A stretch of DNA of 64,000 bases from Actinomycetes bacterium. Its GTDB lineage: Bacteria; Actinomycetota; Acidimicrobiia; Acidimicrobiales; GCA-2861595. The position numbers were made by a program, and so were the translations under genes. Numbering within the stretch: position 1 is the first letter of the stretch; each line of letters starts with the position of its first letter. The DNA lies in NCBI GenBank assembly GCA_023264975.1, contig JAHFUS010000006.1:19923-83922 (forward strand). The letters run 5' to 3'. A model generated the notes under the pieces. That model made no database searches. It was given only the letters and a program-made list of their open reading frames with translations, and had not been told where the DNA came from. Shown here piece after piece: positions 9,457-34,668 of the stretch.

Positions 9457-10146
9457 TCAGTTGCGTTCGCAGCGGTCGAGGGCCTCCGACTGCGCACCCA
9501 GGCGACCACCCGGTGCCGCCGGGAGCGCCGCCATGTACGTGGCGTAGTCGCTGTCGCTCAGGACGAGCATGCACATGTTGAGGGTCGTGGTGACGGAGCG
9601 GGTCCTCCAGCCCGAGTGGTAGCTGACCTCGATCCGGGGCAGGCGGTATAGGCCGGGGCGCCGCGCAGCGACCGAGATGGCGATGCGGGTTGCGTCCGGG
9701 CTCTCCAGGGGCCCCTCGATGCGCGTTCCCAGGAGGGGAGCTACCGCGTACGCATCCGCCAGGCTCCCGCGGTACGTGCCCAGATCCCCATCCTTGAGCC
9801 GGTGGAACTCGACCTGGAGGCCGTCCGTCGCGCCGATGGCACGGACGCCGGTCAACTCCACAGGGTGGCCGTGCGTGGTGCCGAGTGTGCCGGCGAAGCT
9901 GAGAGGGACGTTCACCGGGCTCGGCCCGCTGCCGACGGCAACGCCGAGGGTGAGTGTCTCGCCTCGATCGGCCCACCACAGCGTCGTCGAGAGGATCGCC
10001 ACCACGCCGGCCACCGCCACGCCCGCCACCGCCACGCCCGCCCGTCGTGCTCCCCTCGAGGTCACATGGAAAATGAACCACGGCCGCGACGGGCCCGCCC
10101 GGCCCACGCATTTCCGGCGATGCGCGCGAACGCTGCTGGTGCTCAC
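9457..10146 (-). CDS. Hypothetical single-TM exported protein
   Basis: ORF with TM AGVAVAGVAVAGVVAILSTTLWW. Confidence 0.6.
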   Translation of the reverse strand: MSTSSVRAHRRKCVGRAGPSRPWFIFHVTSRGARRAGVAVAGVAVAGVVAILSTTLWWADRGETLTLGVAVGSGPSPVNVPLSFAGTLGTTHGHPVELTGVRAIGATDGLQVEFHRLKDGDLGTYRGSLADAYAVAPLLGTRIEGPLESPDATRIAISVAARRPGLYRLPRIEVSYHSGWRTRSVTTTLNMCMLVLSDSDYATYMAALPAAPGGRLGAQSEALDRCERN

Positions 10147-10355
10147 CTTCGGGGCCGGTCTCCTGCCGGTGATCGTGAAGCTGGCGGCCGTCGGCGAGTG
10201 TCGGCGGTGCCGTCTAGGGTCGCGCCGTCGTGCGTACCGGCCGCCGTCTCCAGCTGGCGGATGTGCTGCGAGCCGCCTGACGGGCGGTCACGGCGACGTC
10301 GCTCGACACCGGAATCAGGTTCCGGGCCCGGCCCGTTCCGCCGTAACCTCGGGCC

Positions 10356-12047
10356 ATGACGGCTGACAACCGACCTCGCTCGCGCGAGGTCACCGAAGGG
10401 TTCGAGCGGGCACCGGCGCGGGCGATGCTGCGGGCGATCGGCATGACCGACGCCGACTTCGACAAGCCGCAGGTCGGCGTGGCGTCGTCGTGGAACGAGG
10501 TCACCCCGTGCAACATGCCGTTGGCCGCCCTGGCCCAGCGGGCCAAGGACGGCGTGCGCACCGCCGGGGGCTTCCCGATCGAGTTCGTCACCATCGCCGT
10601 CAGCGACGGCATCTCCATGGGCCACGAGGGCATGCGGGCGTCCCTGGTGAGCCGGGAGGTCATCGCCGATTCGGTGGAGACCGTGATGCACGCCGAGCGC
10701 TTCGACGGCATGGTGTGCCTGGCCGGGTGCGACAAGTCGCTGCCCGGCATGCTCATGGCGTCGGCCCGGCTGAACCTGCCGGCGGTCTTCCTCTACGGCG
10801 GGTCGATCCTTCCCGGGCGCATCCCGGGCGACCCGGCCGAGCGCAACCTCGACATCGTCAGCGTGTTCGAGGCGGTGGGCGCCCGCGCCGCCGGAACGCT
10901 CACCGACGAGGAGCTGTCGCTGATCGAGCGCCACGCCTGCCCCACGATCGGAAGCTGCGCCGGCATGTTCACGGCCAACACCATGGCGGCGGTGGGGGAG
11001 GCCCTGGGCATGTCGCTGCCGGGCAGCGCGTCGCCGTCCGCCGTCGACCCCCGGCGCGACGACGCCGCCCGCCGGTCCGGGGAGGCGGTGCTCGGCTTGT
11101 TGAACGCCGGCATCCGGCCCCGCCAGATCCTGACCAGGGAGGCGTTCGAGAACGCCATCGCAGTGGTCATGGCCCTGGGCGGTTCCACCAACGCGGTGCT
11201 GCACCTGCTGGCCATCGCCAGCGAGGCCCGGGTCGAACTCACCCTCGACGACTTCAACCGGGTCGGCCGGCGCACCCCCCACATCGCCGACACCAAGCCC
11301 CACGGCCGCTACCACATGGTCGACATCGACCGGGTGGGCGGCGTGCCGGTCGTGCTGCGCGAACTGCTCGACGCCGGTCTGATCCACGGCGACTGCCTCA
11401 CCGTCACCGGCCGCACGATGGCCGAGAATCTGGCCGACCTCGACCCGGCCGGTCCCGACGGCTCGGTCATCCACCCACTGTCGAACCCCATTCACGTCGA
11501 CGGCGGCATCGCCGTCCTGTCCGGCTCCCTCGCGCCGAAGGGGGCGGTGGTCAAGGTCGCCGGCCTCGACGTCGCCCGCTTCGACGGTCCGGCCCGCGTA
11601 TTCGACGGTGAGCAGGCCGCCCTCGACGCCGTGCTCGCCGGCGGCATCGAGCCCGGCTGCGTGGTCGTCATCCGCTACGAGGGGCCCAAGGGCGGGCCCG
11701 GGATGCGCGAGATGTTGGCCGTCACCGGCGCCATGAAGGGGGTGGGCCGGGGTGGCGACTGTGCGCTGCTCACCGACGGCCGCTTCTCCGGCGGCACCCA
11801 CGGATTCTGCATCGGCCATGTCGCCCCCGAGGCGGTGGACGGCGGCCCCATCGCCTTCGTGCGTGACGGGGACCGCATCGTCATCGACGTCACTGCCCGC
11901 ACCATCGACCTCCTGGTCGACGAGGCCGAGCTGGTCGTGCGCCGGGGCGAGTGGAAACTGCCGGAGCCCCGTTACACCACCGGCGTCCTTGCCAAGTTCG
12001 CCAGGCTGGTGACGGGGGCCGAGCGGGGGGCCGTCACCGAGCCGTAG
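10356..12047 (+). CDS. ilvD: Dihydroxy-acid dehydratase
   Basis: [27 protein letters not shown], full length. Confidence 0.97.
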
Positions 12048-15648: not shown

Positions 15649-15697
15649 GCTTTCGAGTAAATAGGGTGTCATTGTGACACCCTATTTACTCGAAAGC
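15649..15697 (+). repeat. Palindrome family copy 1
   Basis: GCTTTCGAGTAAATAGGGTGTCA-ttg-TGACACCCTATTTACTCGAAAGC, perfect 23-bp arms. Confidence 0.97.
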
Positions 15698-15726: not shown

Positions 15727-16644
15727 ATGGTGGACGAAGCTGTGGCTGAACTTGCACGTCGGCAGTACGGAGTCTTCTCGAGACGGCAGGTGCTGGCCGT
15801 CGGCGTGACTGCAACGGTGATGACCGGCCGATTGCGCGCTGGTCGTTGGCTGCAGATCGCGCCCGGCGTGTACTCGCTGCCGGGCATCCCACCCTCATGG
15901 CGGCGGTCGCTGATGGCCGCCTGCCTGGAAGCAGGCCCGGGGGCGGTGGTGTCGCACGAGGCGGCTGCCGCCCTGCACTGGTTCGCCACCTTCACGTCCG
16001 GGCCGGTCGTGGTCACGCTGGCACACGGGGACCACCAGCAGCTGCGGCTCGGCAGACTTCGCCAGTCCACTGACCTCCAGTCCCACCACTGCACGACGAT
16101 CGACGGCCTCCCGGTCACGACGGCGGCCCGCACGCTCGTGGATCTGGCCGCGGTGGTCCGGCCGGGGCGGTTACGCATCGTCGTGGAGGACGCGTTGGCG
16201 GCGCGGGCGTGCCGTCTGGAGGACGTGAGCGGGTGCCACCAGGAGTTGCGCCGGCCCGGCAAGCGTGGGATGGCGTGCCTGGCCCTTGTCCTCGGTGCGC
16301 TCGGCCCTGGCCGCGTCCCGTCACCGTCGGTGCTCGAGCGACGATTTCGTGAGGTCCTGCGCAAGGGCGGACTTCCTGCGCCGGTACGTGAGCATGCACT
16401 GCCGTGGCGCTCGGACGTCGAGGGCCGGGTCGACTTCGCCTACCCGGCGGCCAAGGTCCTCATCGAGGCGGACAGTAGGCGCTGGCACACCCGCGACCGG
16501 GACTTCGAAGTCGATCGGCGGCGCGACCGGGAGGCGCAGCTCGCCGGATGGGACGTCTACCGGTTCACCTGGCATGACCTGCGCACCGACCCGGAGGACG
16601 TGGTAACCACCGTCCGCCGTGGCCTCGCTCTTTCGAGTAAATAG
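15727..16644 (+). CDS. AbiEi-antitoxin-like N-terminus fused to DUF559 (Vsr-like) domain
   Basis: ARRQYGVFSRRQVLAVGVT..LRAGRWLQIAPGVYSLPG; C-term VDFAYPAAKVLIEADSRRWHTRDRDFEVDRRRDREAQLAGWDVYRFTW. Confidence 0.8.
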   Translation: MVDEAVAELARRQYGVFSRRQVLAVGVTATVMTGRLRAGRWLQIAPGVYSLPGIPPSWRRSLMAACLEAGPGAVVSHEAAAALHWFATFTSGPVVVTLAHGDHQQLRLGRLRQSTDLQSHHCTTIDGLPVTTAARTLVDLAAVVRPGRLRIVVEDALAARACRLEDVSGCHQELRRPGKRGMACLALVLGALGPGRVPSPSVLERRFREVLRKGGLPAPVREHALPWRSDVEGRVDFAYPAAKVLIEADSRRWHTRDRDFEVDRRRDREAQLAGWDVYRFTWHDLRTDPEDVVTTVRRGLALSSK

Positions 16645-16676
16645 GGTGTCATTTTGACACCCTATTTACTCGGGAG
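16630..16676 (+). repeat. Palindrome family copy 2
   Basis: ctttCGAGTAAATAGGGTGTCA-ttt-TGACACCCTATTTACTCGggag; contains stop codon of the 15727 CDS. Confidence 0.97.
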
Positions 16677-24105: not shown

Positions 24106-25251
24106 CTAGCGGACGACGTACGCGGTGAGCTGCTGGACGCCGAAGTCCCGGCAGTAGGCGGTTGACGGGTTCCAGATGTCGAGGCGGCGACCCTTGATGG
24201 CGCCGCCGGTGTCCATGGCCCGCTTGACGCCGAGGCCGCCCACGAAGATCTCGGTGCCGAGAGGGACGGCCCGGGGGTCGACCGCCACGATGTCCTTGGC
24301 GACCGGTGCGCCACTGGCCGTGATGCCCTTGAGGGCGTAGCAGGTGACGCCGAAGTTGCCGATGGCCTCGCCACCGGTGGCGAGCCAGACACCGTCGCCC
24401 GACTGGGTGGCCTCGAGGGCTACCACAGGGGCGTTGGTGGCGCCGGGCAGGGCGGTTGACGGGGCGGGTGCGGAGCCGAACGCGGCCACGCTGCCGTCGT
24501 TGGCCGCCACCCAGTAGCCGGCGCCGTCGGCCGCGGTGGCGATGTCGACGAACGGGCCACGGCGGTCGACCGGCGACCCGGCGAACGCGGCGTCGCCGAA
24601 GGCGAAGACGCCGCCGTCACGGGCCAGGAGCCGGTAGCCATTGCCCGACGGGGTGGAAGAGATGCCCACGACGGGCCCGTTGAGGGCGGTGCCGCCGGCC
24701 GAGCCGAGGAACGTGGCGTCGCCGAAGGCGAAGACGCCACCGTCCTCGGCCGCCAGCCAGTAGCCCTTGCCGGTGGGCGTGGGGGCGATGCCGACGAGCG
24801 AGGCATTCAGGCGCAGGTCGCCGAGGGAGCCGGCGTAGGCGGCGTCGCCGAAGGCGAACACGCCCCCGTCGTGGCCGACCAGCCAGTACCCCAGCCCGGA
24901 GGCGGTGGCGGCGATGTCGACGATGGGCTGGCGCAGAGGAGCGGGGGCGGTGCCGTAGAACGCGGCGTCACCGAACGAGTACACACCGCCGTCAGACGCG
25001 GCGAGCCAGTACCCCTTGCCGGACGCGCTTCGGGCCATGCCGGTGACCGGACGACCGGCGGCGCCGCCGAAATTGGCGGCGGCGCCGAGGGTGACGACCT
25101 GGCCGGTGGCGTTGTCCACAGCCCGGACGGGGCCGTTGGACGCCATCGGGAAGGCGAGCAGACCTATCAGGCCGACGAAGCCCGTACGTCTGAGCTTGAC
25201 GAAACGTCGAGGCCGGATTCGGGAATGGAGACGGGAACAACGGACGGGCAC
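24106..25251 (-). CDS. Secreted protein with about five GYWLxxxDGGVFxFGDA repeats and a 3D domain
   Basis: Signal/TM segment, repeated motif, C-term DIVAVDPRAVPLGTEIFVGGLG..AMDTGGAIKGRRLDIW. Confidence 0.8.
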   Translation of the reverse strand: MPVRCSRLHSRIRPRRFVKLRRTGFVGLIGLLAFPMASNGPVRAVDNATGQVVTLGAAANFGGAAGRPVTGMARSASGKGYWLAASDGGVYSFGDAAFYGTAPAPLRQPIVDIAATASGLGYWLVGHDGGVFAFGDAAYAGSLGDLRLNASLVGIAPTPTGKGYWLAAEDGGVFAFGDATFLGSAGGTALNGPVVGISSTPSGNGYRLLARDGGVFAFGDAAFAGSPVDRRGPFVDIATAADGAGYWVAANDGSVAAFGSAPAPSTALPGATNAPVVALEATQSGDGVWLATGGEAIGNFGVTCYALKGITASGAPVAKDIVAVDPRAVPLGTEIFVGGLGVKRAMDTGGAIKGRRLDIWNPSTAYCRDFGVQQLTAYVVR

Positions 25252-27720: not shown

Positions 27721-28283
27721 ATGGATGCTCCCCAGCTCACCCGGGTCGACGGTGTCGAGGTCGACTGTGTCGAGGTCGACGGTATCGAGGTCGACGGTAT
27801 CGAGGTCGACGGTATCGAGGTCGACGGTATCGAGGTCGACGGTATCGAGGTCGACGGTATCGAGGTCGACGGTAAGTTCCCCGGCAGCCTCCGTGCGGCC
27901 GCTACCGGGGACCACACCGACGCGGCCGCCGTGGCCCGGAGGGAGGCGTGGCAGCTGCCGGTGCTGCGGCAAGGCCGCCTCAGCCGCAGTCTGCCGGAGA
28001 CGTGGGAGGGCGTCCACCTCCGCCTCCGAGCCGCCCTGTGGGAGGTGGCCGCCAGCGCTGACGTCCCGTGCCGCCAGGCGCCTCCGTCGATGCGGTGGCC
28101 CGGCTCCTCGTCGGCTACGGCGCCATCATCCCGCCGGCCGGCGACGGCGTCCGGGCGCTTGCTGCCATCGCCGAGGCGGGCTGCTCAGGTCGCGAGACCA
28201 GCGGCGGCCCGGATGTGGCCGAAGCCGCCCGCCTCGGCGAACGCCTGTCCGGCTACCTCGCATTGCGGGCCCGCTTCGGTTGA
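27721..28283 (+). other. Hypothetical gene with N-terminal (G/C)(V/I)EVD repeat, probably frameshifted near 28060
   Basis: Frame from 27721 (MDAPQLTRVDGVEVD...) degrades after 28060; natural-looking continuation VPPGASVDAVARLLVGYGAI..LALRARFG* lies in the frame of 28068-28283. Confidence 0.45.
27751..27870 (+). repeat. 15-bp tandem repeat, 8 units
   Basis: GGTATCGAGGTCGAC x6 identical plus two variant units. Confidence 0.98.
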
Positions 28284-31245: not shown

Positions 31246-31899
31246 ATGACAAGACAGAGTGTAAACGGCGTCGGCGTGCTCGACAAAGCCATTGCGATTC
31301 TCGACTCCCTCGAGGAGGGCCCGCTCGGCCTCGCCGCTCTCGTGTCGGCCACCGGGCTGTCCCGCCCCACCGCCCACCGCCTGGCCACCGCCCTGGAGGG
31401 CCACGACCTGGTTGCCCGAGACAGCGCCGGCCGGTTCATCCTCGGGCCCCGCCTCGTGCGGCGCCCGCTGGAGGAGGCGGCCCGCCCTGCGTTGGCGGCC
31501 CTGCGGGACGCCACCGGCGAGAGCGCCCAGCTCTACGTTCCCCGCAACGGGGCCCGCTTGTGCGTCGTCGCCCTGGAGTCGCCCCACGGCCTGCGCACCA
31601 TCGTCCCGGCCGGCGCTGTCCTGCCGCTCGACCAGGGCTCGGCCGGCGCCGCCCTCCGCGGCTCGCCCGAGGTGCTGCGACGGGGGTGGGCCCAGAGCGC
31701 CGAGGAGCGCGAGCCCGGAGTGGCCTCGGTGAGCGCCCCCGTCCTCCACGACGGCGCCGTGGTGGCCGCCGTGTCGGTGTCGGGCCCGGTGGAGCGCACG
31801 ACTCGGTCACCCGGCCGGCGCTACTCGGCGGCGGTGGTGGCCGCCGCCCGTGCCGTGGAGGTCGCCATGGGCTGGAACCAGTCCCTTTCGAGTAAATAG
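31246..31899 (+). CDS. IclR-family regulator (NdgR/LtbR-like), divergent from leuCD
   Basis: VGVLDKAIAILDSLEEGPLGLAALVSATGLSRPTAHRLATALEGHDLVARD; genomic position. Confidence 0.88.
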   Translation: MTRQSVNGVGVLDKAIAILDSLEEGPLGLAALVSATGLSRPTAHRLATALEGHDLVARDSAGRFILGPRLVRRPLEEAARPALAALRDATGESAQLYVPRNGARLCVVALESPHGLRTIVPAGAVLPLDQGSAGAALRGSPEVLRRGWAQSAEEREPGVASVSAPVLHDGAVVAAVSVSGPVERTTRSPGRRYSAAVVAAARAVEVAMGWNQSLSSK

Positions 31900-31927
31900 G
31901 GTGTCGAATTGACACCCTATTTACTCG
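31889..31927 (+). repeat. Palindrome family copy 3
   Basis: CGAGTAAATAGGGTGTC-gaatt-GACACCCTATTTACTCG; supplies stop codons to genes on both sides. Confidence 0.97.
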
Positions 31928-33846: not shown

Positions 33847-34632
33847 GTGCGCGTCGGGATCGCAGGCAAGGGCGGCGTCGGCAAGACCACCATCTCGTCG
33901 GTGCTGGCCCGCACGCTCGCCCGGCGGAGCTACCGGGTGATCGCCCTCGACTGTGACTCGGACCCCCACCTGGCCATGAGTTCCGGCATCGAGCAGGATC
34001 GGATCGACGCCATGCGCCCGTTCGTCGAGCGACGGGGCCGGGGCGATTCGTTCACCACCGACGCTGTCACGCCGGAGGAGATCCTGGCCAGGCACGGCCT
34101 CGAAGGGCCGGACGGCGTCGTCTACATGCAGGCGGCCCGGATCACCAAGCCGGGCGGCGGCTGAACAGGCGGCTCCCATGTCACGGTTCGTGGCTTCATC
34201 GAGAACATCGAGGCGGAGTACCCCGGCACGGTCGTGATCGCCGACATGGAGGCCGGCCTCGAGCACCTGTCATGGGCGGGCGGCACCCTTCGCTACGTCG
34301 ACGCCCTTCTCCTGGTGGCCGAGCCGCAGAAGAAGGTGCTGCTCACCGCCCGCCGGGCCCACCGCCTCGCCGGCCAGTTGGGCATCGAGCGGGTCGCCTT
34401 CGTGGGCAACCGGGTCCGCGCCGGCGAGGAGCCGATCCTGCACGAGTTCGTGGCGTCGCTCGACGCCGACCTCCTGGCCGCCGTACCGGAGGACCCTGCC
34501 GTGGTGGCTGCCGACCGGGAGGGCCGTTGCCTCCTCGACGCCGCCCCCGACTCGCCCGCCGTCCTCGCCATCCAGCGCCTGGCCGACGACCTCGAGGACC
34601 GCTACCTCACCCGAGTCCCCGTTCCCGAGTAA
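33847..34632 (+). CDS. CooC-like P-loop ATPase (MinD/NifH fold) interrupted by an in-frame TGA at 34162-34164
   Basis: VRVGIAGKGGVGKTTISSVLART..VIALDCDSDPHLA; TGA; same frame continues TGGSHVTVRGFIENIEAEYPGTVVIADMEAGLEHLSWAGGTLRYVDALLLVAEP... to TAA at 34632. Confidence 0.8.
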
Positions 34633-34668
34633 ATAGGGTGTCGTTTTGACACCCTATTTACTCGGGAG
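34622..34668 (+). repeat. Palindrome family copy 4
   Basis: TTCCCGAGTAAATAGGGTGTC-gtttt-GACACCCTATTTACTCGGGAG; contains stop codon of the CooC-like gene. Confidence 0.97.

Follow-up and report, generated by a model that had tools for sequence, protein, structure and literature searches.

The closest described system to the gene analyzed in this study is CooC1 of Carboxydothermus hydrogenoformans, the nickel-insertion ATPase of CO dehydrogenase (PDB 3kje, 3kjg, 3kjh and 3kji), whose Cys112 and Cys114 are ligands of Zn or Ni where the two subunits of the dimer meet (PMC6006190). The protein encoded at 33847-34632 of the window (the whole stretch of 64,000 nucleotides analyzed) shares with CooC1 the deviant Walker A sequence GKGGVGKTT, the fold and the position of the metal-site loop. 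It differs from CooC1 in having an inferred selenocysteine (Sec, U) in place of Cys112, glycine in place of Cys114 and a conserved histidine five residues after Sec, and no CO dehydrogenase gene was found beside its gene. A CooC-type nickel-insertion ATPase has also been described in the group 1m [NiFe]-hydrogenase clusters of Actinobacteriota (PMC9561532), where the same family occurs beside a protease, a NifU-Rieske protein, a TPR protein and a small protein of ~90 aa; similar clusters were found in this study in Pseudonocardia and others. Selenium is not mentioned in that report (PMC9561532), whereas several members identified here have UGA at one or both of the cysteine positions. HypB is comparable in its proposed nickel-delivery role and general P-loop architecture (PMC9164220), but it belongs to the G3E GTPase family, which is distinct from CooC-like ATPases, and neither HypB nor HypA was found over the cut-off in the host genome.

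Known bacterial selenoproteins include [NiFeSe] hydrogenase, MbdU, a CobW-related protein and the SO_0444 Cu/Zn transporter, and as in the present family Sec replaces a metal-binding or redox cysteine and is directed by a bacterial SECIS element (PMC13188914). A 2026 review lists 119 families and subfamilies of prokaryotic selenoproteins, among them no CooC/NifH/MinD-type ATPase and no UxU motif (PMC13188914), and the main text of the GOS and 2016 selenoprotein surveys contains no such ATPase. A literature search on Sec-containing CooC, nickel chaperones and Acidimicrobiia selenoproteins, with preprints and most subscription papers outside its scope, gave nothing relevant. Sec-containing CooC-type ATPases thus appear to be a large uncatalogued family. 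An earlier reading of this DNA from its sequence alone (the sequence-only reading) had considered Sec in this family to be new; absence from the 2026 catalogue agrees with this, and an earlier mention elsewhere is not excluded.

The gene and its in-frame UGA

The reading frame of the gene (forward strand) starts at GTG 33847, is interrupted only by TGA at 34162-34164, beyond which it reads on as TGGSHVTVRGFIENIEAEYPG..., and ends at TAA 34630-34632, giving a protein of 261 aa including Sec106. The read-through protein matched the Pfam family CbiA (E 3.9e-16), and its best match by sequence among solved structures was CooC1 (3kje, E 1.2e-19). Reading of the frame together with this match confirmed the original observation of a TGA inside an otherwise full-length CooC-like frame with a normal stop. 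In the 3kje alignment the TGA lies opposite Cys112, the first cysteine of the CxC motif, as the sequence-only reading had proposed, and the pattern GC.C..H.TV that it gave is present in the family alignment. The CxC expected at this site is found only in part: the first cysteine column is occupied by UGA, and the second, opposite Cys114, by Gly108 (34168-34170), giving U-T-G where most homologues have cysteine in the second column. His111 (34177-34179) is conserved in the alignment across three groups (the UTG, the UTC and the hydrogenase-linked subfamilies) and may, by inference, be an extra metal ligand.

An AlphaFold2 model with 54 homologues as input and cysteine in place of Sec had a pLDDT of 91.8 and matched MinD, CooC1 (3kje, E 1e-13) and nitrogenase Fe proteins in fold. 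In the model the Sec site falls directly before helix 108-124, in a loop that is predicted less confidently (block mean 77). Among the features of CooC, the deviant Walker A with a NifH/MinD-type fold is present in the protein and the CxC metal motif is not (UxG). The Walker A sequence (residues 7-15, 33865-33891) is near-invariant in 55 aligned proteins. The DMEAGLEH motif of the Walker B region (34243-34266) is conserved in the CooC-like family, and D133, M134, E135, A136, G137, L138, E139 and H140 are invariant or near-invariant in the alignment of 55 proteins. The Sec column of alignment A1 is invariant too, but this was left out as evidence, since the members of A1 were chosen for cysteine or Sec at that column. 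No specific NCBIfam model for these CooC-like proteins was found. Assignment as a MinD partition-type ATPase was rejected, with 71.7 bits against the curated TIGR01969 cut-off of 201.75.

Repeats were also observed in the window. The palindrome AAATAGGGTGTC-GTTTT-GACACCCTATTT at 34631-34659 overlaps the TAA stop of the gene and precedes a convergent greA; by inference, it may be a bidirectional terminator serving both genes, or else a repeat element. The perfect form AAATAGGGTGTC-N5-GACACCCTATTT also occurs at 15659-15687, 16639-16667 and 31894-31922. It is AT-rich within a GC-rich genome and has 28 genome copies; the reversed-pattern control gave 0 and the chance expectation in the window is 0. 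Positions 27744-27874 hold a 15-bp tandem repeat of GGTCGACGGTATCGA (8.7 copies, 97% matches), and positions 24494-24929 an imperfect 126-bp tandem repeat (3.5 copies) within a minus-strand ORF.

Exchange of UGA and cysteine among homologues

Homologues were gathered with the window protein as query, and in a protein search of 99 related genomes all stops were read through and counted. The search revealed a CooC-like multigene family with up to ~12 members per genome, carrying 0, 1, 2 or 3 TGAs, and nine matches in the host genome; neither TAA nor TAG was reported inside any strong match. Orthologues with exactly one TGA were found in six other genomes (G001, G003, G033, G045, G070 and G082) at 52-89% identity. 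These matches and 80 further loci from named genomes gave an alignment of 201 distinct members, in which, besides ordinary C-terminal stops, TGA is confined to the two CxC columns. The first column has 46 Sec and 120 Cys, and the second 20 Sec and 131 Cys. The alignment of homologues, suggested by the sequence-only reading as a check, therefore came out in its favour: the TGA position is Cys or UGA in relatives, and no other position is recoded. The motif forms observed are UTG (the subfamily of the window gene), UTC, UAC, UMC, UNC, UNU/UTU, ULU/UPU/UAU, CPU/CLU/CAU, GUGG and CxC. One cysteine homologue falls within the UTG subfamily (L107, CTG), and its genome also has a UTG copy (L106). Two CooC-like genes, L097 1091-1834 (+) and L099 8696-9421 (-), have the metal motif GUGG, with one Sec and no cysteine left, and their SECIS lies 19 nt after the UGA.

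On a tree built by a single quick method (FastTree), the Sec/Cys label requires at least 14 changes against 44 with shuffled labels, so the exchange is repeated but non-random. Values of dN/dS on distant orthologues were saturated and compositionally biased and were discarded; the closest orthologue pair alone gave 0.14 before the TGA and 0.22 after it, i.e. purifying selection on both sides. UGA forms are present in five phyla, and were observed among others in Chloroflexota (with Thermomicrobiales), Gemmatimonadota, SAR324 and one Verrucomicrobia bin. They also occur in two isolates, Pseudonocardia kunmingensis DSM 45301 and P. nigra DSM 104088, which have the CPU form (L164 and L143). The subfamily of the window gene is patchy, as only 9 of 395 sampled genomes of the class have a close relative of the gene.

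The host genome (3.78 Mb, 139 contigs, 98% complete) encodes all the machinery that was searched for. SelA (336 bits), SelB (278 bits, starting directly downstream of SelA), SelD (326 bits) and tRNA-Sec (67 bits, with the gathering score at 47) were found, ARAGORN likewise calling a tRNA-SeC with anticodon tca; their absence would have refuted Sec under the sequence-only reading. SelA also follows the UGA forms across genomes. Among named genomes, 14 of the 16 that have UGA forms carry it, compared with 2 of the 10 that have cysteine forms only (p 0.001); among related genomes it is present in 12 of 13 with UGA forms and in about half of the remainder (p 0.013). It was not found in three genomes with UGA forms (G005, L111 and L112), all of which are metagenome bins.

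The hairpin after the UGA codon

Bacterial SECIS elements are modelled as hairpins 16-37 nt after the UGA with a G in the first loop positions, a stem of 4-16 bp and an MFE of -7.5 kcal/mol or lower (PMC13188914). The hairpin GTCACG-GTT-CGTGGC at 34180-34194, with a 6-bp stem and a triloop GUU, was found as the sequence-only reading had described it, except that the loop starts 21 nt and not 22 nt after the UGA. Its compatibility with bacterial SECIS models was upheld, the spacing, loop, stem and MFE (-8.0 kcal/mol for a 45-nt stretch) all satisfying the above model. This MFE is unremarkable against shuffles (z +1.1), and the stability of the hairpin was therefore excluded as evidence; nor was there a useful difference in MFE between UGA genes and cysteine genes. 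The weight of the hairpin comes from conservation and covariation. The original caution that this was only a candidate is thus right for the hairpin taken alone, but conservation and covariation now give it a stronger status.

Comparison of UGA genes of the H-x-x-V-R type revealed a hairpin loop starting 20-21 nt after the UGA and a 5-bp core stem that is complete in 28 of 31 genes, the exceptions being two SAR324 genes and a Verrucomicrobia gene with a shifted hairpin. None of 52 cysteine homologues with histidine at the same place has a complete core stem (Fisher 4e-19 against the UGA genes), and it is complete in 4 of 43 more distant cysteine homologues with asparagine in place of histidine. 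Sliding one strand, as a control, destroyed the core stem. When synonymous codons were redrawn with the peptides fixed (2000 trials), a mean of 0.81 and a maximum of 5 of the 31 stems were complete, and the corresponding chance of a stem in the window gene by itself was 0.03. Two-sided changes were observed at four of the five stem pairs (GC/AU, CG/UA, CG/UA and AU/GC), and double, compensatory changes occur in 29 cells, compared with 10.1 +/- 2.3 for shuffled and 0-3 for slid structures. In the CxU/UxU subfamily the hairpin is a different one, GAGC-AGUU-GCUC, for example CCCGAGC-AGTT-GCTCGGG. Its distance from the second UGA is exactly 19 nt, and it too shows compensatory changes. One cysteine form, CPC (L149 2320-3072 (+)), retains the entire AGTT hairpin after its TGC codon, and SelA was not found in its genome; it is probably a recent Sec-to-Cys change with a fossil SECIS.

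Our analysis leads us to consider it almost certain that the UGA at 34162-34164 is read as Sec, a conclusion reached without protein-level or read-level data, actual incorporation of selenium being inferred. Of the options left by the sequence-only reading (Sec, nonsense mutation or error), Sec is strongly supported by the machinery, the Cys/UGA exchange and the covarying hairpin. A nonsense mutation in a decaying pseudogene would explain why a gene that is intact in every other respect has one in-frame stop, and with nine family matches in the host genome one member could be lost; but the same TGA is kept in orthologues as distant as 52% identity, purifying selection acts on either side of it in the closest pair, and none of the 201 homologues has an internal TGA at any other column. 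Conservation in practice refutes this explanation, which we consider extremely improbable. The draft state of the assembly, in 139 contigs and without read data, leaves room in principle for a sequencing or assembly error, but this is hardly conceivable: genomes from other genera and families, assembled independently, have the same codon at this position, and the homologous columns carry UGA in five phyla, the Pseudonocardia isolates among them. Equally hard to entertain is reassignment of UGA to another amino acid, or its general suppression, in the host. No supporting evidence for it was found, and it is opposed by TGA being the terminal stop of many genes in the same family, by cysteine at the recoded position in homologues, by the local hairpin kept by UGA genes and by the dedicated tRNA-Sec. 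In bacteria, termination competes with Sec insertion, so that a short product is also made. A functional short form of ~105 aa with incidental read-through could therefore be imagined as regulated truncation, but the region after the UGA, with the DMEAGLEH motif and the whole C-terminal half, is under selection, and judged by the AlphaFold2 model the short piece would lack half of the fold; we judge this highly improbable.

Metal site, hydrogenase clusters and proposed function

With the UGA read as Sec, the following mechanism can be proposed. SelB, guided by the SECIS hairpin directly after the codon, would insert Sec at UGA 34162, where it would replace the first metal-binding cysteine in the interface between the subunits. 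Homology with CooC suggests a metal ion, most likely Ni(II), bound between two monomers, with the binding and hydrolysis of ATP opening the metal site and passing the metal to a client enzyme; the likeliest client pathway would be nickel insertion into hydrogenase. The window protein is probably a metal-handling ATPase of the CooC type, for which there are no Ni-binding or ATPase data, and nickel as its metal is inferred. The window member has no four-thiolate CooC site as such because the second cysteine is missing. We infer that a UxG homodimer, together with the histidine five residues on, could offer two selenolates and two imidazoles.

The neighbours of the window gene, called by a simple GC-frame method and then clustered and annotated, are leuC, leuD, an alpha/beta hydrolase, a kelch protein, greA and leuB-like, ilvE-like and leuA-like genes. 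No nickel enzyme is among them, and the gene lies outside any [NiFe]-hydrogenase gene cluster. No consistent neighbour of its subfamily was found: close relatives share only the leuC/leuD/greA arrangement, and in other genomes the adjoining genes are unrelated. Sister subfamilies, with both Sec and Cys members, occur in clusters with the large and small subunits of [NiFe] hydrogenase, accompanied by a HycI/HybD protease, a NifU-Rieske protein, HypC, HypD, HypE and HypF, and in Chloroflexota and SAR324 also by a family-5 solute-binding ABC transporter. Sec forms were observed in [NiFe]-hydrogenase gene clusters (L113, L114, L115, L118, L124, L164, L143 and L052), and a Pseudonocardia hydrogenase cluster holds a CPU member, its CxC-less partner and two cysteine members together. 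The host genome has two [NiFe]-hydrogenase large subunits (G000:C79 and G000:C82), one of them adjoining a CLC paralogue at G000:C79. Given the homologues in hydrogenase clusters and two host hydrogenases without HypA or HypB, hydrogenase nickel insertion is the likeliest client pathway, and the CooC-like set of the host provides good candidates for it. The link of the window member (UxG) to hydrogenase is indirect and inferred only; that this member itself delivers nickel for hydrogenase is plausible but, on balance, not something we would assume.

CxU/UxU genes and CLCCGSH genes are adjoined by another CooC-like gene, which has an intact Walker A but lacks CxC, and this CxC-less neighbour suggests, as an inference, heterodimers with one metal-binding half. 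At L045, 8968-9693 (-) with 9765-10532 (-), a two-Sec CooC-like protein lies directly beside such a partner, and the same pairing of a two-Sec form (ULU, UAU) with a CxC-less gene was observed at L057, L058, L091, L093, L094, L095 and L054. A selenium-dependent nickel chaperone system, in which sets of Sec CooC-type ATPases with UxC, CxU, UxU and UxG sites, some with CxC-less partners, replace HypA/HypB for [NiFe] hydrogenases, is offered only as a tentative proposal.

Sec might instead be inserted for redox chemistry, as a selenol/disulfide-type switch on the ATPase, and not as a nickel ligand. Selenoproteins are mostly thought to be redox proteins (PMC13188914), UxG with one Sec makes a poor four-ligand metal site, and the CxC-less tandem partners suggest hetero-oligomers with another chemistry. 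Against this, Sec stands exactly at the Zn/Ni-binding position of CooC, the sister subfamilies are tied to [NiFe] hydrogenase and the family-5 solute-binding ABC transporter, and a conserved reductase partner is absent; a redox role is thus unlikely without being negligible. The preferred account as a whole, namely that the gene encodes a selenoprotein, a CooC-type ATPase with SECIS-guided Sec and with nickel as its inferred metal, is considered very likely.

The results add P-loop metallochaperone-type ATPases as a class of selenoproteins, some members of which have two Sec in one metal site, and standard annotation splits their UGA-containing genes in two. The Sec, Cys and mixed forms, together with a cysteine form with a leftover SECIS, make this family a good system for the study of Sec/Cys exchange. 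If the hydrogenase link is true, H2 oxidation in soil Actinomycetota and other phyla would be tied to selenium supply, and the question would arise why a selenolate is used over a thiolate as nickel carrier. If the proposed chaperone system is true, hydrogen oxidation would be selenium-dependent through the assembly machinery and not through the enzyme itself.
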